From an uncultured Oscillospiraceae bacterium (GTDB lineage Bacteria > Bacillota_A > Clostridia > Oscillospirales > Oscillospiraceae), in NCBI GenBank assembly GCA_900754605.1, contig CAAEDK010000078.1:1-10675 (forward strand): DNA of 10,675 nucleotides. Reading direction: 5' to 3'. Within the stretch, counting starts at the first letter, position 1, and each line of letters begins with the position of its first letter. Positions 3 through 10,675 of the stretch are shown piece after piece. Made by a program: the position numbers and the translations under genes. Under the pieces are notes generated by a model, which ran no database searches, had not been told where the DNA came from, and saw only the letters and a program-made list of their open reading frames with translations.

Positions 3-289
3 CTGTACCCGGACAGATGGCAGGAGCACAGCTATGTAGCCCTGTGCGGCACTGGCGGCCAGGCCGTGTGCTGGATGCTGGAGCAGCACCCCAGCCTCCA
101 ATCCGTTGTGCTCTGCCTGTGGATCACGACGAGCCCGGGCAGACGGCGGCCAGGCGCCTCCAGGAAGAGTTGCAGGGAGCAGGATACCACAGCGGTATCC
201 TGCTCCCTGTGCATAAGGACTGGAACGACGACCTGGTGCAAGGGCAGACCATGGCCGGCCTTGTAATGACCATGGGGCAGAGTATGTAG
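3..289 (+). pseudogene. C-terminal part of DUF3991/TOPRIM-type protein, frameshifted
   Basis: This is the 3' end of a gene that starts before the window. Frame 3 from the left edge reads LYPDRWQEHSYVALCGTGGQ and continues to SVVLCL. The homologous reading then resumes in frame 2 as DHDEPGQTAARRLQEELQ, followed by HKDWNDDL and a TAG stop at 287-289. SVVLCL plus DHDEPG is what I recall of the end of the TOPRIM fold in DUF3991/TOPRIM proteins of clostridial conjugative elements, where the DxD-like acidic patch binds metal; HKDWNDDL is the usual tail motif. The two halves join cleanly if the extra bases T and G at 120-121 are removed, so the gene carries a 2-nt insertion or a sequencing error. 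In intact relatives the protein is thought to work in DNA processing for transfer. The frameshift falls inside the TOPRIM motif, so this copy should be inactive if the sequence is right. The family call rests on remembered motifs. Confidence 0.68.
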
Positions 290-427
290 GCCGCAGAGGC
301 GCACCGCCCGCCAGGGGGGTGGTGTGCCCTGCCGCTGGACCGGGGGCCGGTTCATTTTGGCCCGCCCAGAAGGTCACAATGGAAGTAGATTTAAACACAG
401 AGAGCAGACAACGAAGGGATGATTGCA

Positions 428-700
428 GTGAACAACGACACCTGGATGCTGATCCTCCTGCTGGCGGTGGTATTCGGCGCCCTGGTCGCCATCACAACCT
501 TTTCCGGCCGGGGCAGCCTGGACAGCATCAAGAGTAAAACCGTGGGCGACGGGCAGCACGGCACCGCCCGCTGGGCCACGCCGGGGGAAATCAAGAAGAC
601 CTTCCGCTCCGTCCCCTTCCAGACCGCGCTGTGGCGGAAGGGGGAGCGCCTCCCGGGCACACAGGGGCTGGTGTTGGGCTGTACCGGAAAGAAGGGGTAG
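428..700 (+). pseudogene. N-terminal fragment of VirD4/TraG-type coupling protein, ends at premature TAG
   Basis: This is the amino-terminal piece of the coupling protein whose main part lies immediately downstream in the same frame. It has one hydrophobic segment (WMLILLLAVVFGALVAI, about residues 5-21) that would anchor it in the membrane. The conserved stretch GDGQHGTARWAT follows, then PFQTALWRKG and GLVLGC, all typical of the region before the P-loop in clostridial ICE coupling proteins. I prefer GTG at 428 as the start because AAGGG at 414-418 is 9 nt upstream; the ATG at 419 touches that site. The reading ends at TAG 698-700 right after CTGKKG. Beyond it the same frame continues with LTALVDSDD without any shift, so this is a nonsense change, not a natural end. 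If the stop is real the product is a short membrane peptide without ATPase function. Confidence 0.72.
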
Positions 701-712
701 CTCACGGCCCTG

Positions 713-2170
713 GTGGATTCGGACGATGTCCACTGCCTCATGATCGGTGCCTCCGGCGTGGGCAAGACCGCCTTCTTCCTATACCCCAATTTGGAATACG
801 CCTGTGCCAGCGGCATGAGCTTCTTTGCCAGTGACACCAAGGGAGATCTGGCCCGGAACTATGGGGCCATCGCCCGGGACTGCTATGGCTACCAGGTGGC
901 GGTGGTGGATCTTCGGAACCCCACCCGCTCAGATGGCTATAACCTGCTCACCCTGATCAATCACTATATGGACGCGTGCCGGAGAGATCCGGCTGACCTG
1001 GCCGCCCGGGCCAAGTCTGAGAAGTACTCCAAGATCCTGTCCAAGGCCATCATCAACCCGGATGGGGAGAACTTTGCACAAAATCAATATTTTTACGACG
1101 CGGCGGAGGGCGTGCTCACCGCCGTGATTCTGCTGCTAGCGGAGTACCTGCCGCCCAGGGAGATCGACGGAGTGCTGCGAGAGCGGAGGCACATCGTATC
1201 CGTGTTCAAGCTGGTGCAGGAGCTGCTGGCCCCCAGCATTCTGCCCGACAAGAATGAGTTCCAGCTCCTCATGGACCGCTTGCCGGAGGAACACAAGGCC
1301 AAGTGGTTCTCCGGCTCCGCCCTCACCGCCGCCGAGCAGTCTATGGCCTCCGTCATGTCCACCGTCCTCTCCCGGCTGAACACCTTCCTGGACTCGGAGC
1401 TGGAGCAAGTGCTGTGTTTCGACAGCACCATAGACGCCGAGAGCTTTGCCGCAAAGAAATCCTCCATCTTCCAGATACTTCCGGAGGAAGATCAGACCAA
1501 AAACTTCTTGGCTGGGCTAATGATCCAAACCCTGAGTCGGGAGCTTTTCTCTGTGGCGGATGAACACGACGGGAAGCTGCCCTGCCGGGTGGTGTTTTTC
1601 TGTGACGAGCTGGGCACCATGCCTGCCTTCGACATTCTGCCCCTGTTCTCCGCTGGCCGCTCCCGGCGGCTGACTCTAGTGCCCATCATCCAAAGCCTGG
1701 CCCAGCTGGAGAAGAACTACGGCAAGGAGGGGGCGGAGATCCTGGCGGATAACTGCCAGGACACCATCTTCGGCGGCTTTGCCCCCAACAGCCAGACCGC
1801 CGAAGTGCTGTCCAAGGCTCTGGGCAGCCGCACCGTGATGAGCGGCTCCATCTCCAGGGGGAAGAACGACCCCAACCAGAGCCTCCAGATGATCGAGCGG
1901 CCCCTCATGACCCCGGACGAGCTCAAGTCCATCCCCAAGGGGCACTTCATCGTCATGAAAACAGGCACCCACCCCATGCAGGCCCGCCTGCGCCTGTTCC
2001 TGGAGTGGGGGATCACCTTTGGTGCGGCCTACCAGGTACCCCAGCAGGCCGCCCGAAAGGTCTACTACGCCAGCAAGGCAGAATTGACCGATATCATATA
2101 CCGGGCATTTCCTGCGCCTGCCTGCCAGAACAACTACCGCACGCCGAAAAAGGAGGAAACCGTGCCATGA
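713..2170 (+). CDS. VirD4/TraG-family type IV coupling protein, ATPase part
   Basis: This is the main body (485 residues from GTG 713) of a conjugative coupling protein, the hexameric membrane ATPase that brings the relaxase-DNA complex to the type IV secretion channel. The Walker A motif GASGVGKT is at residues 12-19, DTKGD at 41-45, and Walker B VVFFCDE at 293-299, followed by LGTMPAFDILPLFSAGRSR. These match the clostridial ICE coupling proteins closely. Residues from GSRTVMSGS to MTPDELKS are the usual C-terminal part of the family. Reading back through the TAG at 698-700 to GTG 428 gives about 580 codons, normal for the family, so the gene is full length apart from that one stop. Without the N-terminal anchor the shortened form would probably be soluble and transfer-defective. 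The GTG start at 713 has only a distant purine-rich site (AAGGGG at 692-697), so translation of this part may depend on reinitiation. Its stop overlaps the ATG of the next gene (ATGA). Confidence 0.9.
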   Translation: MDSDDVHCLMIGASGVGKTAFFLYPNLEYACASGMSFFASDTKGDLARNYGAIARDCYGYQVAVVDLRNPTRSDGYNLLTLINHYMDACRRDPADLAARAKSEKYSKILSKAIINPDGENFAQNQYFYDAAEGVLTAVILLLAEYLPPREIDGVLRERRHIVSVFKLVQELLAPSILPDKNEFQLLMDRLPEEHKAKWFSGSALTAAEQSMASVMSTVLSRLNTFLDSELEQVLCFDSTIDAESFAAKKSSIFQILPEEDQTKNFLAGLMIQTLSRELFSVADEHDGKLPCRVVFFCDELGTMPAFDILPLFSAGRSRRLTLVPIIQSLAQLEKNYGKEGAEILADNCQDTIFGGFAPNSQTAEVLSKALGSRTVMSGSISRGKNDPNQSLQMIERPLMTPDELKSIPKGHFIVMKTGTHPMQARLRLFLEWGITFGAAYQVPQQAARKVYYASKAELTDIIYRAFPAPACQNNYRTPKKEETVP

Positions 2171-2370
2171 GCTATTTTAGTGAGATCTACGGCGACCCGG
2201 AGCTGAGTGCCAGGGCCAAGCAAGTGCTGGTGTACCTCCACGACCGGGCAAACAAGGATGGCAAGAGCTGGTACGCCATCGCCACCATGGCCAAAGACCT
2301 GAGCATCTCCCGCTCCACCATAAAACGAGCCCTGGCAGAGTTGATCCACCAGGGCCGAGTGGAGAAATAG
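2167..2370 (+). CDS. Small winged-helix (HTH) protein, probably truncated by TAG
   Basis: This is a 67-residue protein beginning MSYFSEIYGDPELS, with an HTH core AIATMAKDLSISRSTIKRAL. It resembles the short helix-turn-helix proteins that follow the coupling gene in many clostridial conjugative elements, where they are presumed DNA-binding regulators. The ATG at 2167 overlaps the coupling protein stop and has GGAGG at 2152-2156, 10 nt upstream, so the two genes are translationally linked. The frame stops at TAG 2368-2370 after RVEK, but the next codons read ARFRENRGCTSN, which is the beta-wing continuation I expect in full-length relatives. Reading through would extend the protein to TAA 2437-2439 (90 codons plus the stop). 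The recognition helix is retained and the wing is lost. Homology beyond CTSN becomes unclear, which may mark the junction with the agr island. Confidence 0.72.
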   Translation: MSYFSEIYGDPELSARAKQVLVYLHDRANKDGKSWYAIATMAKDLSISRSTIKRALAELIHQGRVEK

Positions 2371-2439
2371 GCAAGATTCCGGGAGAACAGAGGGTGTACT
2401 TCGAACTGTTATCAAATAAAGCAATTGATGCGCATCTAA
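2371..2439 (+). pseudogene. In-frame remnant of the small HTH protein after the TAG
   Basis: Codons after the TAG at 2368-2370 continue in the same frame as ARFRENRGCTSN and then CYQIKQL before TAA 2437-2439. The first dozen residues fit the wing of the preceding winged-helix domain, so this is the lost 3' end of that gene and not an independent one. The last residues no longer look like the family, so the original end may have been replaced when foreign DNA joined here. Confidence 0.55.
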
Positions 2440-2514
2440 TGTGATAACTCAGTCAGTTAAGATATAAAGTGTTGTGGGGAGAATTTTTGCGTTTTATGAA
2501 ATAGCCCATAGTAT

Positions 2515-3792
2515 TCATGAAGGATTTAGATTGAGATAAAGTGTTATACGAAACATACCGCCTTCCTGCTTTATATCGAGCGTACCCCCGTATTTGTCTA
2601 CAACCGACTGGACATTTTGTATTCCATATCCATGGAAAGAATGGCCGGAGTGTAGACGATGTTTACCGCCCTCAATATACGGGTTGGACATCTCATAGAG
2701 AAGAAGATTGTTATGGACTGAGATCTCTAATGAGATTTTCCTATGTTGGGCTGGAAGGGCTAGACATGCCTCTAAAGCGTTTTCAAAAGTGTTTCCAATA
2801 ATAATGCTAAGGTCGAGTATATTGATGTTTAGAGTTTGGGGTACCCAGACAGATAAATCTAATGGTACAGTCAAATCATTAGCTTGCTGGGCATAGTGTT
2901 GCAGAATTGCGCCGACTTCCGGGTTCCCGACATCAACAACACTTCCGATTTTGCTGAGAGAGTCCTGTGCATCAAGGAACACCTGTTCCACAGACGATTT
3001 ATCCCCGCTTACCGACACAGCTTTCATGGCAGTTAGGTATTTGCTCATATCGTGCCACATGGCGCGGGTTTGCTCCTGCTCTTTCCAAAGGCTGTCGTAA
3101 TAGCTTAACTGTAGTTCAAGCTGTTGCTGTCGGAGATCGGCATTGTGCCGCTCTTCCTGCCGTGCTTTGACCACCTCTGCATAGACAATGATTATAATAT
3201 TGAGATAGAGGATGCCTATTAAAATAATCGTCGATTCCACAGAGAGTTTTCGTCCTCCATTTTGCGTAAGGCGCAGAATTTCATCGCAGAAATAGACGCT
3301 GAATATCTGACACGCAAGAAGAGGCAACAAGCTTTTCAGCTTCAGTAAAGAGTGCTCCCTGTGCATGAGTGGAACGGCGATTATGACCAACGCTAATTGG
3401 CACACTTTCGCTATGAGAATATAAATAGCCCGTTCATACCCCGGGGACATAACGTCCAGATACTCCCACCCCATAATTGCAAGCAGCTTTAAGCAAAGGA
3501 GCTCCGTAATCAAGGCCAACGCACAAAATACGGTAGCAACATAAACTGCATTAAGTGGTGCAGAGCGATAACAGACTTTACACAGCACAAGAATACCGAG
3601 CCAAGTGTAAATAGTTCGGACAATCGGCATAACAGGAACCACGTTCAAGGCCATGAGTCCTATTCCAAATATAATATAGGCAACCCACACTATCGCAGAT
3701 GAACGTGAGTTCCGGGAAAGTAGCTTTTGCAGATAGAAAAAGATGAGGAATACTCCAAAAACAATGGTAGAAAGATGATAGATGAAATACAT
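2515..3792 (-). CDS. agrC: AgrC-like GHKL sensor histidine kinase
   Basis: This 425-residue membrane sensor kinase is the likely receptor for the cyclic peptide made by the divergent agrBD pair. Residues 1 to about 205 contain six or seven hydrophobic segments (for example 9-21, 33-50, 84-106, 122-141, 153-168, 188-205), as in AgrC sensors. A charged, probably coiled-coil linker follows at about 206-242 (ARQEERHNADLRQQQLELQL). The phospho-acceptor is H247 in MWHDMSKYL, the non-canonical H-box of the AgrC/GHKL class. The N-box is GNTFENALEA (333-342) and the G-box HGYGIQNVQSVV (387-398), forming a HATPase_c_5-type domain with no usual D-box. AGAAGGTGA at the end of the response regulator gene acts as its ribosome binding site, and only 4 bp separate the genes, so the two are co-translated. 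It runs toward the truncated HTH gene, ending about 75 bp from it. Ligand specificity cannot be read from the sequence. Confidence 0.92.
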   Translation of the reverse strand: MYFIYHLSTIVFGVFLIFFYLQKLLSRNSRSSAIVWVAYIIFGIGLMALNVVPVMPIVRTIYTWLGILVLCKVCYRSAPLNAVYVATVFCALALITELLCLKLLAIMGWEYLDVMSPGYERAIYILIAKVCQLALVIIAVPLMHREHSLLKLKSLLPLLACQIFSVYFCDEILRLTQNGGRKLSVESTIILIGILYLNIIIIVYAEVVKARQEERHNADLRQQQLELQLSYYDSLWKEQEQTRAMWHDMSKYLTAMKAVSVSGDKSSVEQVFLDAQDSLSKIGSVVDVGNPEVGAILQHYAQQANDLTVPLDLSVWVPQTLNINILDLSIIIGNTFENALEACLALPAQHRKISLEISVHNNLLLYEMSNPYIEGGKHRLHSGHSFHGYGIQNVQSVVDKYGGTLDIKQEGGMFRITLYLNLNPS

Positions 3793-3796
3793 ACAA

Positions 3797-4477
3797 TCAC
3801 CTTCTCAAAAAGTGAAACAGGGCTTCATCAAATAATTTCTTCCGATTTCTGCTGATGGGGATCTCTGTTCCGTCTGTTAAAAGAAGGTTGGCCTTTTGAA
3901 TACGGTCTACAAAATCGAGGTTCACCAGGAAGCTGTTGTGGGGCCGTGCAAAGCCATTGCCCCACAAAGTCCCCTCAAATTCCTTGAGCGGAGTCCGCAC
4001 CTGGTACTGTTCTTTGCTGGTATGGATTATCGTTTTATAGCTAAAGACCTCAATGTACGTAATGTCTCTGATCCTTACGAGAATTGGCCCGCGTTCCCCG
4101 GCCACAGGGATGCTTTTTGGGGAGCACTTAGCCACTGCGGCAGATACTGCCCGCACAAAGTCCGGGTATTCGACCGGCTTTTTCAAATACCGAAAGGCAA
4201 CCTCATAGCCCCGGATTATGTAGGCCCCACTCTGTGTAATGAAAATGATCAACGGAATATCGGGCAACTTGTTGAGTTCCTCAGCCGCCTGGTAGCCGTT
4301 CATACCCTCCATTTCTATATCCAGAAGTACGATATCGAAATAGTCCCGCCGAAAAGCCGCAAGCAGCTCCTCCGATGAGGCAAACCCCTTCCAGTTCGCT
4401 TGAGCGTTGTAGCGTAGCAAATAGTCCCGGATCTGCCGCAGTTCATTAGGGTTGTCGTCGCACAACGCGAATTTCAT
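3797..4477 (-). CDS. agrA: AgrA-like LytTR-family response regulator
   Basis: This 226-residue response regulator is the partner of the adjacent kinase. The receiver domain covers about residues 1-120, with the acidic pair D7/D8, phospho-acceptor D53 in VLLDIEMEGMNG, switch residue T81 and K100-P101 in RYLKKPV. The LytTR DNA-binding domain covers about 130-226, with ITYIEVFSYKTIIHT, the GFARPHNSFLVNLDFV motif (R-x-H-x-S-x-L-V-N) and the C-terminal ISRNRKKLF. LytTR proteins bind direct repeats about 21-22 bp apart near their target promoters. The start at 4477 has a strong site, GAGGGAGAG, just upstream. It lies 18 bp behind the XRE gene and 4 bp before the kinase. By analogy with staphylococcal AgrA it should activate agrBD and its own operon once phosphorylated, but no convincing pair of LytTR repeats was found by eye. 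Confidence 0.92.
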   Translation of the reverse strand: MKFALCDDNPNELRQIRDYLLRYNAQANWKGFASSEELLAAFRRDYFDIVLLDIEMEGMNGYQAAEELNKLPDIPLIIFITQSGAYIIRGYEVAFRYLKKPVEYPDFVRAVSAAVAKCSPKSIPVAGERGPILVRIRDITYIEVFSYKTIIHTSKEQYQVRTPLKEFEGTLWGNGFARPHNSFLVNLDFVDRIQKANLLLTDGTEIPISRNRKKLFDEALFHFLRR

Positions 4478-4495
4478 TTCTCTCCCTCAACTTGG

Positions 4496-4813
4496 TCATG
4501 AGTGCTTTTTGTGGAAAGCTGTACGGATACTGTCCTGAATAAATTTCTGTACAGGCTCGTCCAGTTCAGAGAGCATATTTTCCAGCTCGCTAAATTGATA
4601 TTGATCTTGCTTCTCGTCATAGAAAATCTGATTTGCGTCCAGTGAAAGCACATTGACCAGCCGCTTTAGCGTGGGGATGCTCGCCATGGACAGGCCTCGC
4701 TCCAACTGCCCGATATAGCCGGCCGATTTCCCAATCAATTCCGCAAGCTGCTCCTGTGTCAATCCGTGCTCTTCCCGTTTCATACGAATTAAGTCGCCAA
4801 TCTGCATAGCCAT
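4496..4813 (-). CDS. XRE-family HTH transcriptional regulator
   Basis: This 105-residue regulator has an N-terminal Cro/CI-type helix-turn-helix: IGDLIRMKREEHGLTQEQLA, then ELIGKSAGYIGQLERG (about residues 5-41). A short C-terminal helical tail (ELENMLSELDEPVQKFIQDS) may mediate dimerisation. A longer reading starting at 4870 exists, but its extra N-terminus is hydrophobic and unlike the family. ATG 4813 has GAGGG 8 nt upstream, and ATG 4807 is also possible. It is the first gene of the minus-strand arm, 18 bp before the LytTR regulator. Classic staphylococcal agr has no such protein. I infer that it adjusts expression of one or both diverging arms, perhaps by binding the small inverted repeat at 4886-4898. 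Whether it represses or activates cannot be told. Confidence 0.88.
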   Translation of the reverse strand: MAMQIGDLIRMKREEHGLTQEQLAELIGKSAGYIGQLERGLSMASIPTLKRLVNVLSLDANQIFYDEKQDQYQFSELENMLSELDEPVQKFIQDSIRTAFHKKHS

Positions 4814-5014
4814 CACCAATGCCCTCAGCTGTAGTGTTGCTATTATTATTACATAGCAAATCGTTGGCATACAGATAGTGATACAATGATTTTATCATAG
4901 TTATACAAAAGAAACAACCAGATACTGCACAGAAACGACAGGTTACAGCAAATCTATTGTGCATTTTATACAAGAAGTTAATATATACTTATCAGTAAAA
5001 AGAAGGAATGAACA
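4814..5014. promoter_or_regulatory. Divergent control region between the two agr arms
   Basis: This AT-rich 201-bp gap separates the diverging XRE-agrA-agrC and agrBD arms and must hold both promoters. On the minus strand TATGAT (read at about 4899-4894) is a fair -10 element. On the plus strand TATATA/TATACT around 4982-4990 sits about 30 bp before agrB, but its -35 match is poor. The octamer TTATACAA occurs twice in direct orientation (4901-4908 and 4966-4974 region). GTTA half-site-like cores occur at 4900, 4942 and 4977, but they do not give a clean LytTR pair at 21-22 bp. The position is certain; the individual elements are guesses. Confidence 0.6.
4886..4898. promoter_or_regulatory. Candidate operator: inverted repeat ATGAT-TTT-ATCAT
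   Basis: This is a perfect 5-bp inverted repeat around a 3-bp centre. On the minus strand it overlaps the best -10-like hexamer for the XRE gene. A site of this size and place would suit autoregulation by an XRE dimer, but so short a palindrome can occur by chance in AT-rich DNA. Confidence 0.3.
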
Positions 5015-5605
5015 ATGATCAAAAAGGCGGCAGCCGGATATGTCGGTTGGTTGTGTGCCAATGGGATTGTAGCGCCGGAAAAGAACAAAATATACGCCTA
5101 CGGGATGGAGCTGGTTCTATCTGGCTTGGTCAATGTCCTGTCTGTCCTGCTGATTTCAATTCTGATCTTCCATCCGGCTGACGGCTTGCTCTTTCTTGTG
5201 GCCTTCATCCCCCTGCGGACAACAGCGGGCGGATACCACGCAAATTCCCACCTGTCCTGCAATATAGTTTTCCTCAGCACGTTTGTTGCGTTGGAGTGCC
5301 TGGGACATTTGCTTCTGAAATACGGTTCCGTCATTCTCTATCTAGCTATAGCAGTCATTTCACTTGTAACACTGCTGATCCTATCCCCTAGCGAGGCAAA
5401 AAACAAGCCGCTGACCCCGGAGCAACGACGGCGCAATCGCCGCAGAAGCCTCATTTTAGGCGGGCTGAACCTGGCAATCGGGATCTTCCTTATCTGGGGC
5501 CTTCAAGCGCCGGCCCCATGGTGCACAAGCTATTACTTAGGAGTCATCGCAGCATCAATTTCGATGTGGGCGGCTCAAATAAAAGAAAGGATGTGTGTGC
5601 AATGA
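5015..5605 (+). CDS. agrB: AgrB, membrane peptidase/cyclase for the autoinducing peptide
   Basis: This 196-residue integral membrane cysteine endopeptidase removes the C-terminal tail of AgrD and forms the thiolactone ring. The catalytic pair is visible as H75 and C82 in RTTAGGYHANSHLSC, with the exact seven-residue spacing of staphylococcal AgrB (H77/C84). Four to six hydrophobic segments are apparent (about 33-53, 57-67, 83-101, 104-123, 146-163, 171-189). A basic loop, PEQRRRNRRRS (about 135-145), separates the last pair. The length is normal for the family. ATG 5015 has AGAAGG 8 nt upstream. The stop TGA at 5603-5605 overlaps the agrD start, so the enzyme and its substrate are translationally coupled. 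It is first gene of the plus-strand arm and diverges from the sensor and regulator genes. No lesion is seen in it. Confidence 0.95.
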   Translation: MIKKAAAGYVGWLCANGIVAPEKNKIYAYGMELVLSGLVNVLSVLLISILIFHPADGLLFLVAFIPLRTTAGGYHANSHLSCNIVFLSTFVALECLGHLLLKYGSVILYLAIAVISLVTLLILSPSEAKNKPLTPEQRRRNRRRSLILGGLNLAIGIFLIWGLQAPAPWCTSYYLGVIAASISMWAAQIKERMCVQ

Positions 5606-5739
5606 AAGTGATGGTTGAACGTATTTTACTGTGGTTTGGCGGGGCAATGGCCGTGCTAGCGAGATATACAGCCACTGCGTCGGTAAGCTCCACCTGCTTC
5701 TACACGGCCTATCAGCCGGATGTACCAGATGAGCTTTGA
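5602..5739 (+). CDS. agrD: AgrD, autoinducing peptide precursor (45 aa)
   Basis: This short precursor follows the three-part AgrD plan. Residues 1 to about 24 (MKVMVERILLWFGGAMAVLA...) form an amphipathic, membrane-associating leader. Residues about 28-36 (VSSTCFYTA) hold the signal. The charged tail YQPDVPDEL aligns position by position with the AgrD tails HQPEEPKSL (Clostridium perfringens) and DEVEVPKEL (Staphylococcus aureus). That alignment puts AgrB cleavage after A36 and gives a five-residue thiolactone ring C32-F-Y-T-A36. An N-terminal tail of one to four residues (T, ST, SST or VSST) remains after leader removal. The exact N-terminus is a guess. ATG 5602 overlaps the agrB stop (ATGA). 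The same frame is open further upstream into agrB, but a start there would give an N-terminus unlike any AgrD. Confidence 0.9.
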   Translation: MKVMVERILLWFGGAMAVLARYTATASVSSTCFYTAYQPDVPDEL

Positions 5740-5793
5740 GATGAAAATGTAGTTCAATTGCAAAACAAAATTTAGCAGAAAAGGGGTGCACAG

Positions 5794-7086
5794 ATGAACT
5801 GGAACTGGAAAAAAATGATATCTATTGTGCTGGTAGTAACTGTATGTACCACAGGGAGTGCAATCGCTCAAGCTGTTGAATGTGATGTGCCGCAATATAC
5901 TTTTTCAGATGAAAACATCGAGATTGTAGACCCTGCTCTGTTTTATGACCTCTTCACACAGGAGAATGATATCAATGCCATTCAAGATGATACTCTAGAT
6001 GCTTCATATAAATATACATTTGCTCCTTGGGAGGATAATGCTGACAAAAGCGATGTTTCTGTGGATTTTGTAGTCGTAGTAAACGGAGTACCGGCATACG
6101 GTTCGGCTACTGGTGTGGTTGATGCATATGATATCAACGCTGGCAGTATCCTTTGGGCTGGGCCTCTTAATGGAAGTATTGATATTAATGGGTACAAGTA
6201 TCCTCTTATTTTGGGATTCACCAAGATGGAGCCGAGTCAGGAAGTCTGTCTTTCGATAACGATCCAATCCTTTGATAATCATCCCAATATGGAACCAGTT
6301 TATTTTTCAATTGGTACGCCCTTGATAACAGACGGTGTTGAGGAATATATCAGAAATAGACAAGTAGCAGTAGGCGCAGATGATATCAGTGGTGTTGTAT
6401 CTGATGATGCTTTTAAGGCAAATGACTTTTATCAGATAGGAAGCGATTTCGGTAATTTCAATGGTGGCCTAGGAGGAACATCTGGAATAGGCCAAGAAAG
6501 CTTTGTATATGGCAATGCTACAACTGGAACAGTCATGGTAACTCTGCGTACACATGGAGATCGGATTGATAAGGCCTTTTCAGGAGCCGGGGTTAGCAAC
6601 TCTTTTGTTAGTCGTCTTATGATTAAGTTAAATCGTCAAGACTATACAGATGATAGCTATTCATGGATTGTAGGAATTGAACAGTACGATTTTCCGAGTT
6701 CTTCTTTTGGAAAATCTGGGGAATTGTTAATGCCCCTATTTAATGAGATACTTGGCGTGATGGGAGTTCCTTCAAATGTGATTAGCAGTGCACTCTCTGG
6801 GCTAACAGGAGTTGTAACTAAAGAAAATGCAAGTACAGATGCGTACTATGTTTCTTGTGAATTCTCTCTCCTTGAAGAAGCACGCTTTGATAAGATAGAG
6901 ACTGGCCTTCCAATAGTGTTCCAACTCGACCATAATAGCAATTATACAGGATATAGTGATTATGCTTCTTCCACTGAAATTATGTATCGTACTTATTTTA
7001 AGCCCCATAGTGCAAACAAAGGTACATACTACTATACCAGTTGTGAAGATACCTTTATTCCTTTCCAAATCACACTTCCAGAATGA
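5794..7086 (+). CDS. Secreted protein of unknown family, behind agrBD
   Basis: I do not recognise this 430-residue protein. It begins with a clear Sec signal peptide: basic residues KK at 6-7, a hydrophobic core ISIVLVVTV, and a likely cleavage after AIA (25) or AQA (27). The mature part is acidic, beta-rich in appearance and lacks membrane segments, an LPxTG sorting signal, choline- or SLH-type repeats and any recognisable protease or hydrolase motif. A glycine-rich loop, GGLGGTSGIG, lies near residues 223-232, and a VVVVNGVPAYGSATGVV stretch near 93-109. AAGGGG at 5781-5786 is a good ribosome site. It starts 54 bp after agrD with no terminator between, so it is probably co-transcribed, and its stop overlaps the next ATG. 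Codon use is more AT-rich than in the ICE backbone, suggesting separate origin. I infer an agr-controlled exported effector; adhesin, bacteriocin-like toxin or surface protein are all open. Confidence 0.85.
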   Translation: MNWNWKKMISIVLVVTVCTTGSAIAQAVECDVPQYTFSDENIEIVDPALFYDLFTQENDINAIQDDTLDASYKYTFAPWEDNADKSDVSVDFVVVVNGVPAYGSATGVVDAYDINAGSILWAGPLNGSIDINGYKYPLILGFTKMEPSQEVCLSITIQSFDNHPNMEPVYFSIGTPLITDGVEEYIRNRQVAVGADDISGVVSDDAFKANDFYQIGSDFGNFNGGLGGTSGIGQESFVYGNATTGTVMVTLRTHGDRIDKAFSGAGVSNSFVSRLMIKLNRQDYTDDSYSWIVGIEQYDFPSSSFGKSGELLMPLFNEILGVMGVPSNVISSALSGLTGVVTKENASTDAYYVSCEFSLLEEARFDKIETGLPIVFQLDHNSNYTGYSDYASSTEIMYRTYFKPHSANKGTYYYTSCEDTFIPFQITLPE

Positions 7087-7454
7087 AAAAGAGTGCTATC
7101 ATTATTGTATGGGGAGTCATTCTATGTACGAGCGTTTTTATTGTAGTACATATGTTATATTATACGAAAGTACAAATAGAAACACCTACTCTAATACACA
7201 AGTCTTTTGAAGGGACTATTTCCTTCTATTGTGATGAAAGTGACTCCCCATACACACATATTGTTATCGCATTGGCCAATAGGCCCGATAAAACAGAACG
7301 ATTTGTTGTTACTGAAGACACTATATTTGCCGACGATTCAGAAAGTATTATTGCAGAGCGTATAGTAGGGGTGCACGTAGAAATAGAATCTGAATATTGG
7401 AATAATGTAGAATATGATTACTATCCAGTTACTTTAATTTCCGGATGTCTTTAA
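7083..7454 (+). CDS. Small membrane-anchored protein of unknown function
   Basis: This 123-residue protein starts by ATGA overlap with the secreted protein gene, so the two are made together. Residues about 4-27 (SAIIIVWGVILCTSVFIVVH) form a single membrane segment, or an uncleaved signal anchor, with KK before it. The rest should face outside. It has alternating hydrophobic strands (GTISFYC, THIVIALA, ERFVVTEDTIFA, IVGVHVEIE, YYPVTLISGC) that suggest a small beta-barrel, loosely like DUF3221-type OB-fold proteins; that likeness is an impression only. Tight coupling to an exported partner allows an anchor, chaperone or self-protection role, none of which the sequence proves. It is as AT-rich as its neighbour and is followed by hairpins, so it is the last gene of the agrBD arm. 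Confidence 0.78.
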   Translation: MKKSAIIIVWGVILCTSVFIVVHMLYYTKVQIETPTLIHKSFEGTISFYCDESDSPYTHIVIALANRPDKTERFVVTEDTIFADDSESIIAERIVGVHVEIESEYWNNVEYDYYPVTLISGCL

Positions 7455-7567
7455 TGTAAAGACTACAAAAGTATTCTTGATGTGGACAAGATGAAGGTGG
7501 TTTTAATCGATCTATACTAGTATTTTCGTTTAGAATTAGTAACCATAAAATCTTCCGGCGCATAAAA

Positions 7568-7605
7568 GGCCGTCATCTCTGCACATAGGTATTGAGATGG
7601 CGGCC
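7568..7605. terminator. 12-bp imperfect hairpin downstream of the agrBD arm
   Basis: GGCCGTCATCTC (7568-7579) pairs with GAGATGGCGGCC (7594-7605) across a 14-nt loop, with one G-T wobble. There is no clean T-run on the plus-strand side (AATGTTATT follows). On the minus strand an imperfect T-rich stretch follows (TTTTATGCG). It could be a weak or two-way terminator or an RNA-stabilising 3' stem. Confidence 0.5.
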
Positions 7606-7658
7606 AATGTTATTCTATGCCTCGCTATACTACCCCTGAATTTTTATTTCTAGTGCTG

Positions 7659-7687
7659 AAAAGTCCCCTAAATTAGGGGACTTTTTT
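7659..7687 (+). terminator. Rho-independent terminator of the agrBD operon
   Basis: AAAAGTCCCC (7659-7668) pairs perfectly with GGGGACTTTT (7676-7685) across a 7-nt loop, followed directly by further T residues up to 7687. The A-run before and T-run after make it usable in both directions. It is the first strong terminator after agrB on the plus strand, so agrB, agrD and the two exported-protein genes form one transcription unit. It sits about 200 bp after the last stop codon. Confidence 0.85.
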
Positions 7688-7866
7688 AACACAAAATCAA
7701 AAGCTGAACGTGACAAAGGAGAGATAATCCAGAAGTTTATGGAATTCAGAGCTTCGACGAACGTCCACAGACGATCATTTCACGCCAGTGATTGTACTTG
7801 GATATCCCCCACACAGATGCGCCTTTTCCCGGTTAATAGAGACAAATTCAAGTAGGGGGTGCTTTT

Positions 7867-8157
7867 GTGTGGGAAGAACTAGTCGTAAAACGCTATCTTT
7901 GTGCAAAGACGGCTGGGCTGCTGACCTTGGAATATTATCTGCTGATAAGTCTATTTGCAGAAGATCTGGAGATTTACGGTGTCAAAATTGTTGAGTGGCA
8001 GAACAGCAACCAGCGCCCCGGCCTCACAATGAGCGGCCAGCAGATCTTTCGCCCGATTGCTCTGCTTTCCAAAGGGACTGTTGTGCCGACAAGCTTGGTG
8101 GTGGAATTTATAGGGGGCTGTCGTTTGCGTTGCCGGGGGACGGAGGACCTTCAATGA
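7867..8157 (+). CDS. DUF6514-like small protein
   Basis: This is a 96-residue protein starting at GTG 7867, with AGGGGGTG at 7854-7861 as a strong ribosome site. The pattern ELVVKRYLC, LEYYLLIS, YGVKIVE, a Thr-rich short middle and LLSKGTVVPTSLVVEFI matches my memory of DUF6514, a family of about 100 residues in Clostridia. Its members end in a GTVTPVTLxDVVEDW-like motif. The function of the family is unknown. No signal peptide or membrane segment is evident. The gene stands alone between two terminators (7659-7687 and 8244-8291), so it has its own promoter somewhere in 7688-7866, where I saw no clear -35/-10 pair. Its tail (GGCRLRCRGTEDLQ) departs from the motif expected in the family and may be altered. 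The call rests on remembered motifs. Confidence 0.65.
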   Translation: MWEELVVKRYLCAKTAGLLTLEYYLLISLFAEDLEIYGVKIVEWQNSNQRPGLTMSGQQIFRPIALLSKGTVVPTSLVVEFIGGCRLRCRGTEDLQ

Positions 8158-8222
8158 GCGTAGAACGTGGAGTGTCCCTTACTATTTACATTTCTACTTA
8201 TAGTTTCTCTCTGTCCGAATAG
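8154..8222 (+). CDS. Possible 22-residue peptide overlapping the DUF6514-like gene
   Basis: ATG 8154 overlaps the stop of the preceding gene in an ATGA arrangement and opens a frame of 22 codons (MSVERGVSLTIYIS...FSLSE) ending at TAG 8220-8222, just before a terminator. The overlap type matches the coupling seen elsewhere in this window. The only ribosome site is GGGGACGGAGGA inside the upstream gene (about 8136-8147), which is well placed. A frame this short can arise by chance and no homology is claimed. Confidence 0.22.
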   Translation: MSVERGVSLTIYISTYSFSLSE

Positions 8223-8243
8223 AGTATTTGCCTCTCATGGGGA

Positions 8244-8291
8244 GCTCGTGTTGCTGTGGTCTGCGACTACAGCAACACGGGCTTTTCTCTT
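8244..8291 (+). terminator. Rho-independent terminator after the DUF6514-like gene
   Basis: GCTCGTGTTGCTGT (8244-8257) pairs with ACAGCAACACGGGC (8269-8282), 14 bp with one wobble, across an 11-nt loop, then TTTTCTCTT. This is a strong intrinsic terminator that separates the DUF6514-like gene from the HTH regulator. Confidence 0.87.
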
Positions 8292-8456
8292 GATTAAACA
8301 AAACCGCATTGCGCATTATACATAGATTTTTACGCCCAGATGGAGCACAATGCTGATTTTACAAAAACCAGAGGAAAACTTTTTTTAACCGGAAAAGAAC
8401 CTTCCGCTTTAACCTTTATACTTCAATCACAGGGCAAGACGAGAGCGGTGAGAGGA

Positions 8457-8789
8457 ATGCCCCCGTCAGAGCGGAGAAGTGAAATCCTACGTCTGCTATG
8501 CAAGCGGAGGCACGAAACAGCCATAAATCTTGCGACAGAGTTTGGTGTCTCTGAGCGGACGATCCGCAACGATTTGGTGATTCTCTCCTGCTATTACCCG
8601 ATCCAAGTTACATGGGGACGATATGGCGGAGTGGCTCATCTACCAGAATGGTTCCACCTAGAAAACCGGATGTTATCTCCGAAACAGGAAATACTTCTCC
8701 AAAAACTGAAAACAGCCTTAGATGGGGAGGAGCTCCAAGTCATGAATAGTATTCTAGCCCAGTTTGCCCTGTATTGGGAGTATCGGTGA
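8457..8789 (+). CDS. DeoR-like HTH regulator of conjugative elements
   Basis: This 110-residue protein starts MPPSERRSEILRLLCKRRHE and continues with the helix-turn-helix ATEFGVSERTIRNDLVILS and the wing motif GRYGGVAHLPEW. It closely follows a small regulator common in clostridial conjugative transposons (MPKSERKNEILK... GVSERTIRRDI... GRYGGG). The C-terminal half (MLSPKQEILLQKLKTAL) is the usual helical tail. I chose ATG 8457 because the family begins at MP-SER and GGTGA lies 7 nt upstream. The frame extends to ATG 8340, but those 39 extra residues look like no known domain. A possible promoter is TTGATT (8290-8295) with CATTAT (8314-8319), 18 bp apart. It should bind DNA as an element-maintenance or recombination regulator; its target is unknown. 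The length is normal and no lesion is seen. Confidence 0.82.
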   Translation: MPPSERRSEILRLLCKRRHETAINLATEFGVSERTIRNDLVILSCYYPIQVTWGRYGGVAHLPEWFHLENRMLSPKQEILLQKLKTALDGEELQVMNSILAQFALYWEYR

Positions 8790-9234
8790 TCTACCGATTT
8801 CCGTCCTGATCCTTGTAAATAGAATATCCGGCAGCGGGATACGTCCGCTGACGAGAGGCCCTCCGGGAGGGGGGCTGAAGCGACGCTGGAGGATGCGCCA
8901 AGACCACCTGTGCGGGCTGTGAGCCCGCATCAAAGACGGCCAAGGAAGGTGCAGAGCGGTGCCCATCTGTCCACAAAGTAGCCTGTGGCGGGCTGTTTCG
9001 CATTGCGGCTGGCTTATCCGGCCCGACCCTCGTCAGCAATCTGATAATGATACTCCTGTCCAGCCACAGCCCCGGGTAAAACCGGGATCAAGCAATGGGG
9101 GCAGCTCGGAGAGATCCTCGGAGGGATGAGATTCCCGTGATGTGTGCCAACACAGTCCGTCTGCTGCCGCCCAGGGCCCGGGAAGTAGTGTCGAATAGGG
9201 CCAACCAGCGAAATGTATTTTTGAGAGAATTAGC
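8790..9234. other. Hairpin-rich GC-rich region without a convincing gene
   Basis: No frame on either strand here has both a start with a ribosome site and protein-like composition. Short perfect inverted repeats are crowded together: CAGCGG/CCGCTG (8832-8837 with 8845-8850), TGCGGGCT/AGCCCGCA (8911-8918 with 8922-8929), CCACA/TGTGG near 8971-8988, GGCTGG/CCGGCC near 9008-9024, and CCCGG/CCGGG near 9072-9087. A nine-codon frame, MRQDHLCGL (8893-8922), ends inside the second hairpin, with GGAGG abutting its ATG. The layout fits a structured RNA, a leader or an origin-type region in front of the downstream genes; which one cannot be decided here. Confidence 0.45.
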
Positions 9235-9273
9235 GGGGGCCGTTCTGCGGCCATACGCCTCATAACGGCCCCC
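9235..9273. promoter_or_regulatory. Perfect 10-bp hairpin before the 47-residue gene
   Basis: GGGGGCCGTT (9235-9244) pairs perfectly with AACGGCCCCC (9264-9273) across a 19-nt loop. No T-run follows, so it is not a standard terminator. It ends 21 bp before the ATG at 9295 and just ahead of its ribosome site. A control hairpin in the mRNA leader, or a protein-binding site on the element DNA, are both possible. Confidence 0.55.
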
Positions 9274-9294
9274 ATTTGAAAATGGAGATATGAA

Positions 9295-9438
9295 ATGAAC
9301 CACAACATTAACTATATCGGGATGGTGAACCTCCTTCATCACCTCCAGAATGTCGGCCTTGTTAGTCGGAAGGAGGCCGGGAGGACCGCGGCCCGGCTCC
9401 GTGTAGAGACCGGGGCGGACGTCATATTTTCTCCCTGA
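9295..9438 (+). CDS. Conserved-looking 47-residue small protein
   Basis: This short gene reads MNHNINYIGMVNLLHHLQNV and continues with GLVSRKEAGRTAARLRVETG and the end ADVIFSP, stop TGA 9436-9438. I recall similar 45-50-residue proteins (INYxxxVxxL...GLLSxKEAxxIAARIAxxxGAD-I-xS) directly before serine recombinases in clostridial conjugative elements; this copy fits that pattern. It looks like two short helices with a turn and could be an accessory DNA-binding factor, but no activity is known to me. GGAG at 9284-9287 lies 7 nt before the ATG. The recombinase starts 82 bp further on the same strand, and the two are probably transcribed together from upstream of the 9235-9273 hairpin. Confidence 0.68.
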   Translation: MNHNINYIGMVNLLHHLQNVGLVSRKEAGRTAARLRVETGADVIFSP

Positions 9439-9520
9439 TTTTTGTTGCGTTTGGATATGGATATTTTGCGGAAGTGCTGGTATTGTGTGTTGCTGACAGG
9501 AGATATAGAGAGGCGATTTC

Positions 9521-9958
9521 GTGGACGAACAGAAGAAAACTAGTGGTTCCCTGGCATTGAACAGCACGCCCCGGGTGATCACCATCGCGCCCAGCACCCC
9601 AGTCAGGGATCGAAAGCTGCGGGTGGCGGCCTACGCCCGGGTGAGCTCCAGCTCGGAGGATCAGCTCAACTCCTTTGCCGCTCAGAACGCCCACTATACA
9701 GAGCTCATCACAGCCAACCCGGAGTGGGAGTTCGTGGACGTGTACGCGGACAAGGGCATCACTGGCACCTCAGCGGAGAAGCGTGACGACTTCCAACGGC
9801 TCCTGGCGGGCTGCCGGCGGGGCCGGGTGGATAAGATCCTGGTGAAATCCTCCTCCCGATTTGCCAGGAACGCCAAGGAGTGCCTGAAGGCCATCCGGGA
9901 GCTGAAGACCCTGGGGGTAGGGGTACGGCTTCGAGGGACAGGGTATCGACACCTCTGA
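9521..9958 (+). pseudogene. Large serine recombinase, N-terminal catalytic part, frameshifted
   Basis: This is the resolvase/invertase-type catalytic domain of a large serine recombinase, the enzyme that would integrate and excise the element. Catalytic S42 is in RVAAYARVSS (34-43). It is followed by DQLNSFAAQ, the VYADKGITGTS loop (74-84) and the arginine motif KSSSRFARN (109-117). GTG 9521 has GAGAGG at 9508-9513, 7 nt upstream. The frame loses homology after LGVGVR at 9926-9928. One extra base, C9929, shifts reading, and the protein ends with a spurious tail at TGA 9956-9958. In the +1 frame the expected continuation FEGQGIDTSELAGELL is present. As read, the product is a 145-residue catalytic stub without the DNA-binding parts and could not recombine specific sites. 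Confidence 0.85.
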
Positions 9959-10675
9959 ACTGGCCGGCGAGCTTCTCACCGCCATCTTTGCCATGATGGA
10001 CCAGAAGGAGAGCGAGAACATCTCGGACAACCTCCGGTGGAGTATCGATATGCGGATGCGCACGGGGAAATACAATGCCTGCTTCGCCCCGTTTGGATAC
10101 CAACTTGTGGGCGGAAAACTGGAGCTGATCCTTGAGCAGGCGCCGATTATCCGGTATATCTATGACGCCTACCTGGCAGGCAAGACGGCGGAGGACATCG
10201 CAGCGACGCTGAATCTGTTCTCTGATGACCGCCCTTGGAAGCCACAGCGGATCGACTACATCCTCACCAATGAGCGGTACAGCGGCAATGCCCTTCTGCG
10301 GAAGCGATACACGACGGATACTATACCCCGCAAAGTGAAGCGCAACCGTGGAGAGAGGCCCATGTGTTTTGTGGCAGGAATCAATGAAGCAGTGGTTTCG
10401 CAAGAGATATTCGATAAGGCGCAGGAACTGCGCAAAAAACGATGGGAAAACCGCCTTGTCGACCCTGACATTTTTATATCCCGCCAAAACGAGCTGGCGG
10501 AACAGCTCCGCGCCGCAAAGCTGGAGAAGGAACGGTTCCTGAAGGCCGAGGAGGATCAGACGATCCAACAGACTCAGGAGCTGATTGAAGCCCTGGAGGC
10601 TGGGCCGGACTTCCTGGACGCCTTCGATGGGGAGCTGTTCCGCGAGCTCGTGGACAAGATTATCGTGGAGAGCAA
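9930..10675 (+). pseudogene. Large serine recombinase, C-terminal part without zinc ribbon, cut by window end
   Basis: This is the continuation of the recombinase in frame 3, open to the last base. It begins FEGQGIDTSELAGELL and continues through the catalytic-core helix FAMMDQKESENISDN. The Recombinase domain follows (GKYNACFAPFGYQLVGGKLE, TAEDIAATLN, RIDYILTNERYSGNALLRKR, INEAVVSQEIFDKAQELRKK). In relatives a zinc ribbon with CxxC pairs and a long coiled coil follow. Here RKKRWEN runs straight into RLVDPDIFISRQNELAEQLR, which normally lies after those parts, so about 100 residues or more seem to be missing in frame around 10440-10460. No CxxC pair remains. The tail FDGELFRELVDKIIVES is typical of the end of the family. 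Together with the frameshift this marks a decaying integrase. Confidence 0.82.

Follow-up and report, generated by a model that had tools for sequence, protein, structure and literature searches.

In staphylococci, the agr quorum-sensing system is organized as a single agrBDCA operon encoding a protease, a thiolactone precursor, a GHKL kinase and a LytTR regulator, and it also includes RNAIII. Clostridioides difficile carries agr2 in the order agrACDB (PMC3754575), and the phage phiCDHM1 carries agr3, which comprises agrD, agrB and agrC but no response regulator (PMC3901668; PMC5225093). For Clostridium perfringens, a five-residue thiolactone ring is considered the likely natural signal, and the VirS/VirR sensor pair is listed as a system apart from the Agr-like one (PMC7492741). 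In this study, a stretch of 10,675 nucleotides (the window) was analyzed, which contains a complete agr-type cassette with a gene of its own for an XRE-family regulator. The host very probably belongs to the genus Flavonifractor. The cassette is probably cargo of a Flavonifractor element of the integrative and conjugative element (ICE) type and probably drives an adjacent, exchangeable pair of exported proteins.

The cassette provides the same four functions as staphylococcal agr but differs in its two diverging arms, its XRE gene, its mobile setting and the exported cargo following agrD. As in the phiCDHM1 system, the agr genes are located on mobile DNA and have a lower GC content than the other genes of the carrier; unlike the phage set, the cassette is complete, with AgrA and XRE, and resides in an ICE-type element. 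In contrast to C. perfringens, the sensor and signal genes lie within one cassette. MT839939 (L168), a human-gut contig filed as phage, resembles the cassette in that agrC–agrA diverge from agrB and exported-looking proteins, one of them with DUF5626, are encoded in the agrB arm. Its AgrD core is STCCFTAYQPDVP. It differs in lacking an XRE match, in having two open reading frames (ORFs) between agrD and agrB, and in its AgrC, which is 28% identical. Agr genes in phage are known, and each part here is of a known kind; the combination of agr plus XRE as ICE cargo, with a conserved signal and exchangeable exported proteins, appears to be new. The open-licence PMC literature, including passages of PMC5225093 and PMC13293320, yielded no description of agr genes carried by an ICE, although this does not prove its absence in print.

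Gene content and organization of the cassette

By gene content, the region 2515–5739 is a real and complete agr-type cassette. The AgrC-type GHKL histidine kinase (2515–3792, minus strand; 425 amino acids; PF14501, 4.1e-16) contains His247 and, by hydropathy, five hydrophobic stretches. The AgrA-type LytTR response regulator (3797–4477, minus strand; PF04397, 7.4e-20; PF00072, 5.1e-14) contains Asp53, so that a GHKL kinase and a LytTR regulator are encoded beside agrB and agrD. The AgrB-type peptide-processing membrane protease (5015–5605, plus strand; PF04647, 4.2e-35) harbors His75 and Cys82, seven residues apart, which we take to be the catalytic pair. The start of agrD (5602–5739, plus strand) shares 4 bases with the agrB stop, and the 45-residue AgrD pro-peptide reaches 37.9 bits against the TIGR04223 cut-off of 19. 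The profile match and the alignment reveal a leader, a Cys ring and a conserved tail. Searches of PDB sequences with AgrC and AgrB gave no match. Production, export and sensing of a peptide are the predicted functions of these genes.

The initial annotation had described four intact agr functions in two diverging arms, and both statements are borne out by the profile matches and residues above and by the parting of the arms at the intergenic region 4817–5014, in place of the staphylococcal single-operon layout. It had overlooked a fifth gene between agrA and agrB, which encodes the XRE-family regulator (4496–4816, minus strand; PF01381). This gene has a GTG start at 4816 and an ATG at 4813, and its ORF is extendable to 4870. 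The agr island had also been drawn from 2515 to 7454, of which 2515–5739 is indeed agr, while 5794–7086 and 7083–7454 encode an exported protein and a membrane-anchored partner.

The cassette belongs to a lower-GC block (2515–8157) in the middle of the window, whose minus strand encodes AgrC, AgrA and XRE and whose plus strand encodes AgrB, AgrD, the exported pair (P430 and P123) and a DUF6514 protein. The left part (419–2370) contains a coupling-protein gene and a short helix-turn-helix (HTH) gene; the right part (8340–10673) contains a DeoR-type HTH gene, a pemK RNA and a serine recombinase. The agr genes have a GC content of 46.5% and P430–P123 one of 38.7%; the flanks reach 61.0% (1–2410) and 55.8% (8381–10675), and a 20-kb stretch (L039) further along the same contig of the nearest genome compared, G001, has 60.2%. 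This genome is 99.7% identical to window positions 108–10675, with 34 differing positions, two of which fall within 2400–8300.

Flanking modules of the carrier element

The left module consists of a VirD4-like coupling protein of the CD1115 family (419–2170, plus strand), with an in-frame stop at 698–700, and a short HTH protein named by eye (2167–2370, plus strand). The coupling-protein part at 713–2170 scores 237.6 bits with NF045973, under the cut-off of 250. The right module contains a large serine recombinase split in two frames (9521–10673, plus strand; PF00239 in 9521–9958), for which an uninterrupted 534-residue homologue exists in L010. Further recombinase ORFs, containing runs of N, lie to the right in G001. 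The initial annotation correctly placed the cassette between these modules; the coupling protein and the first recombinase are both interrupted.

Among 20 genomes of the genus, DNA similar to window 1500–2480 was detected in 15 (E ≤ 0.001), several of which match over 30–40 bases only. The left-module homology ends at window 2406–2421 in six other copies and earlier in further copies. G018 contains two sets of left and right modules, each set on a single contig and strand and enclosing 57.7 kb (C10) or 29.5 kb (C9) of other genes, which were assigned by eye to glycan synthesis and nucleobase use; the left modules there carry insertions of ~3.7 kb and ~1 kb. In G001, other genes follow an additional left module (C210), and an apparent transporter gene precedes an additional right module (C228). 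Since the same modules border other genes in G018 and G001, the inter-module space, ~6 kb in the window, represents a cargo position. The cassette thus probably occupies the cargo position of an ICE-type element, which now looks decayed. On G001 C210 and G018 C10, the left module is preceded by a VirB4-like gene that matches NF045971 under its cut-off. The left end of the element in the window, where a relaxase gene would be expected, lies off the contig, and no element was seen in both a filled and an empty state. The modules surrounding tens of kilobases of other genes on G018 C9 and C10 suggest that Flavonifractor hosts a family of large elements with cargo.

A conserved signal next to different cargo

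One other genus genome, G006, contains the cassette (locus L042), with the five genes in the same order. DNA homology covers window 2511–5735, from agrC to agrD, and then ends except in the DUF6514 region. Downstream of agrD, L042 encodes an exported-looking protein of 104 residues and an M28-peptidase protein whose start, by eye, resembles that of a lipoprotein. Nearby genes encode a NikA-like mobilization protein, a MobA/VirD2-type relaxase, an AAA_25 protein and an insertion sequence (IS) transposase, and the end of an integrase-like ORF was recognized by eye. Because the homology stops after agrD and the neighbors differ, the G006 cassette resides in other mobile surroundings and with other cargo.

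The AgrD proteins of the window and G006 share the core STCFYTAYQPDVP. Its 13 codons exhibit three synonymous and no replacement changes between the two loci, compared with seven synonymous and eight replacement changes in the 29 leader codons, which points to strong constraint on the core. In the database search with AgrD, the exact core occurs in 14 of 16 aligned rows (the query and 15 of 22 hits); the exceptions have Phe for Tyr34 (P0028) and Leu for Val41 (P0009). The seven unaligned hits are P0008, P0010 and P0013, which contain the core with extensions, P0011, which was not viewed, and P0026, P0027 and P0029, which are without the core. Part of this conservation stems from the search itself, which considers only candidates that have five-residue words in common with the query. 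The pattern C-x-x-x-small-[YH]-Q-P is retained at four more distant loci (L020, L044, L072 and L168) but not in the AgrD-like ORFs of L167, which is without Cys, and L169. In the C. perfringens signal, the ring is likewise followed by Q-P. The cassette AgrD pattern fits the five-residue ring reported for C. perfringens (PMC7492741).

The exported protein pair

P430 (5794–7086, plus strand) is an exported protein of 430 residues with an N-terminal hydrophobic segment, and it represents the cargo and candidate output. P123 (7083–7454, plus strand), a predicted membrane-anchored protein of 123 residues with one N-terminal hydrophobic segment, overlaps P430 by 4 bases. A word search with P430 retrieved near-identical copies only (7 hits, some partial or chimeric), and a search of genome contigs found no relative. 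A six-frame search of 400 family genomes, covering 106 genera, detected P430 relatives in G001 and in five further genomes (E 3.7e-13 to 1.2e-4); four of these relatives are proteins of 380–426 residues with exported-looking starts and 22–24% identity to P430. No agr match was seen near those relatives in the stretches read. The exported pair therefore appears separable from the agr cassette, which fits an exchangeable output. In G148, an exported-looking ORF likewise starts after the agrD–agrB arm.

It is possible, if rather doubtful, that the pair consists of a secreted antibacterial protein and a membrane-bound immunity partner under quorum control, a special case of the proposed cargo role. 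Two overlapping genes, the first for an exported protein and the second for a small membrane-anchored one, would suit such a pair, and in L191 the gene right after the P430 relative likewise encodes a protein with a hydrophobic segment at its N-terminus (by eye). Against this, neither P430 nor P123 matched any family in Pfam, NCBIfam, PHROGs or PADLOC, including toxin, bacteriocin and defence families, and P430 had no match among PDB sequences. A single-sequence AlphaFold2 model of P430, with a mean predicted local distance difference test score of 34.9, gives no clear fold, and adhesin or enzyme roles are equally likely. Sub-cut-off matches of the P430 relatives (PF05869, E 0.088; one PDB chain, E 0.75) and of the L191 partner (PF19119, E 0.017; PF22422, E 0.041; NF005615, E 0.0033) were rejected as noise.

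Distribution and phylogeny

The cassette is present in two of the 20 genus genomes, G001 and G006. Nine of the 20 reach ≥90% completeness with ≤5% contamination, and among these AgrB is found in G001 alone; the absences are soft because no more than these nine pass both thresholds. AgrC relatives (E ≤ 1e-25) occur in 18 of the 400 family genomes and 12 of the 106 genera, including G001 and G006. The AgrC tree, built from 16 genomes and MT839939, conflicts with the RecA tree across the family: G159, G427, G271 and G063, all of one genus, form one RecA group but fall into three AgrC clades. Paralogues may contribute to this conflict, and the placement of the window–G006 pair in the AgrC tree is unsure. 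The tree leaves out G079, G198 and the second AgrC matches of G305 and G367; the rows of G305 and G367 are incomplete genes, and for G063, which has two AgrC-like genes, the family-search match was used. G018 was searched for recA but stands outside the tree.

These data bear on the alternative that the cassette is an old chromosomal agr locus, vertically inherited and frequently lost, with element debris gathered around it. Synonymous divergence similar to that of core genes and the AgrC relatives in 18 of 400 genomes, some of which (e.g., L044 and L067) have no mobile gene recognized by eye nearby, would be expected of such a locus. However, the cassette occurs in few genus genomes and in unlike surroundings, its GC content is low, the same flanking modules bracket other genes elsewhere, and the four genomes united by RecA are spread over three AgrC clades, to which paralogues could add. 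We consider this alternative unlikely. The contrary case to the mobility proposed in the initial annotation, in which every close relative would have this arrangement at a conserved chromosomal site, was not found, within the limits of the soft absences, and the AgrC and host (RecA) trees disagree. Rarity, surroundings, modules around other genes and the trees support horizontal travel of the system, but a recent exchange between G001 and G006 is not supported. The codon-position identity of the cassette, by which a swap between these genomes was assessed, is like that of core genes.

Searches beyond the family genomes yielded little. Scans of viral contigs with AgrB, P430, AgrA and AgrC found no relatives; the DNA search matched no plasmid and, among phages, three records in the flanks alone. 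An AgrB protein search gave distant matches only, to five plasmid and three phage records. L167 (PV036441.1, 3992–5655), from Ruminococcus phage NatCom_29429, contains an AgrA-like gene diverging from an AgrB-like gene and a small AgrD-like ORF without Cys, annotated as hypothetical.

Proposed control and its alternatives

Between the window and G006, amino-acid identity is 97.2% for XRE, 89.4% for AgrA, 86.2% for AgrC, 81.6% for AgrB and 78.3% for AgrD. XRE is thus the best conserved cassette gene in the G006 locus, and with 24 of 37 four-fold sites the same and 13 of 37 differing, it is under strong constraint. In the loci of 16 displayed genomes and G001, agrC–agrA–xre diverging from an agrB/agrD arm was observed in four genomes of three genera (G001, G006, G159 and G148), with agrD preceding agrB in G148; an XRE gene could be overlooked beneath a longer antisense ORF, as in L069. 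The divergent control region (4817–5014) is well conserved between the window and G006 and contains an inverted repeat at 4837–4859, a second one within 4879–4901 and a weak 21-bp direct repeat (4917–4929/4938–4950). The inverted repeat upstream of xre has 16 of 17 bases in common between G159 and G148, which none of 60 shuffles reaches, and 14 of 17 between the window and G148, which 7 of 60 shuffles equal; the ungapped comparison of the window with G159 is not significant (25 of 60 shuffles). The 21-bp direct repeat upstream of agrB is a candidate AgrA box.

From this arrangement we infer a scheme in which the cassette, having arrived horizontally, controls its cargo. The peptide that AgrB would cut from AgrD and export would be a small thiolactone, probably with a ring of five residues (C-F-Y-T-A) and a short tail at its N-terminus. 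AgrC would sense this peptide and phosphorylate AgrA, which would activate the agrB–agrD promoter, creating positive feedback. Transcription may run on from agrD into the co-directional exported pair (5794–7454) as the output, and XRE may repress its own operon through the palindrome upstream of xre and thereby set the threshold.

XRE repressors are common ICE and phage switches. That the agr system is instead a pheromone switch for transfer or excision of the element, with the exported proteins as bystanders, draws on the adjoining coupling protein and recombinases and on the matches of XRE to phage repressor families, but is quite unlikely given that the G006 cassette has different surroundings, the only match to the palindrome pattern in the window lies upstream of xre, the flanking mobility genes are broken, and the exported genes directly follow agrD in the same direction.

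Several observations weigh against a quorum-controlled cargo cassette on an ICE-type element. In addition to its in-frame stop, the coupling protein is short by ~72 bp relative to a paralogue in G001, and the first recombinase is split into 9521–9958 and 9993–10673; because of these interruptions, the copy looks decayed and its present mobility is doubtful. Four-fold-site identity between the window and G006 is 0.62–0.81 for cassette genes, similar to recA (0.68) and rpoB (0.82) of G001 and G006. A repeat with a 21-base period clearly exceeds shuffles in G159 alone of the four loci (3 of 1000), while 150, 142 and 174 of 1000 shuffles are equally good in the window, G006 and G148, respectively. 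The strongest direct repeat has a period of 22 in G001 and likewise in the window, where it lies over the second inverted repeat. A promoter scan yielded 11 promoter-like sites where 12.1 were expected, with none on the plus strand before agrB. In G159, the exported-looking protein is on the agrC side and not after agrD. Finally, the first codons of P430 contain a run of seven A (5807–5813), for which G001 has six, so that its first-ATG frame stops after seven codons; a later in-frame ATG exists in G001. In this one sequence pair, the difference possibly reflects slip-strand switching or a sequencing error.

Beyond the control of its cargo, the five-gene cassette may, tentatively, be portable, moving with one fixed signal between elements and species of gut Oscillospiraceae while each element adds its own exported proteins: a shared language with different secreted products. 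If so, density signaling in gut Clostridia could be acquired as a unit together with an effector, and species with different elements could coordinate their secretion through a conserved peptide. The locus offers a testable peptide, a testable operator and, beside a putative quorum-sensing promoter, an exported-protein family unmatched in the searched libraries.

Additional features of the window

A 66-base repeat (7539–7604) has 78–85% identity in six other genus genomes. Its assignment as an IS end was dropped, as the neighboring genes differ across the six loci viewed. The DUF6514 protein (7867–8157, plus strand; PF20124) is encoded downstream of the cargo in G006 as well, where window 7763–8093 is matched at 75% DNA identity. 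It is followed by the DeoR-type HTH protein (8340–8789, plus strand; PF08220). The pemK RNA motif (Rfam RF02913; 9044–9140, plus strand; 65.2 bits) lies between the DeoR gene and the serine recombinase, within a segment (8381–9520) that has matches, often short, in 88 of the 400 family genomes.

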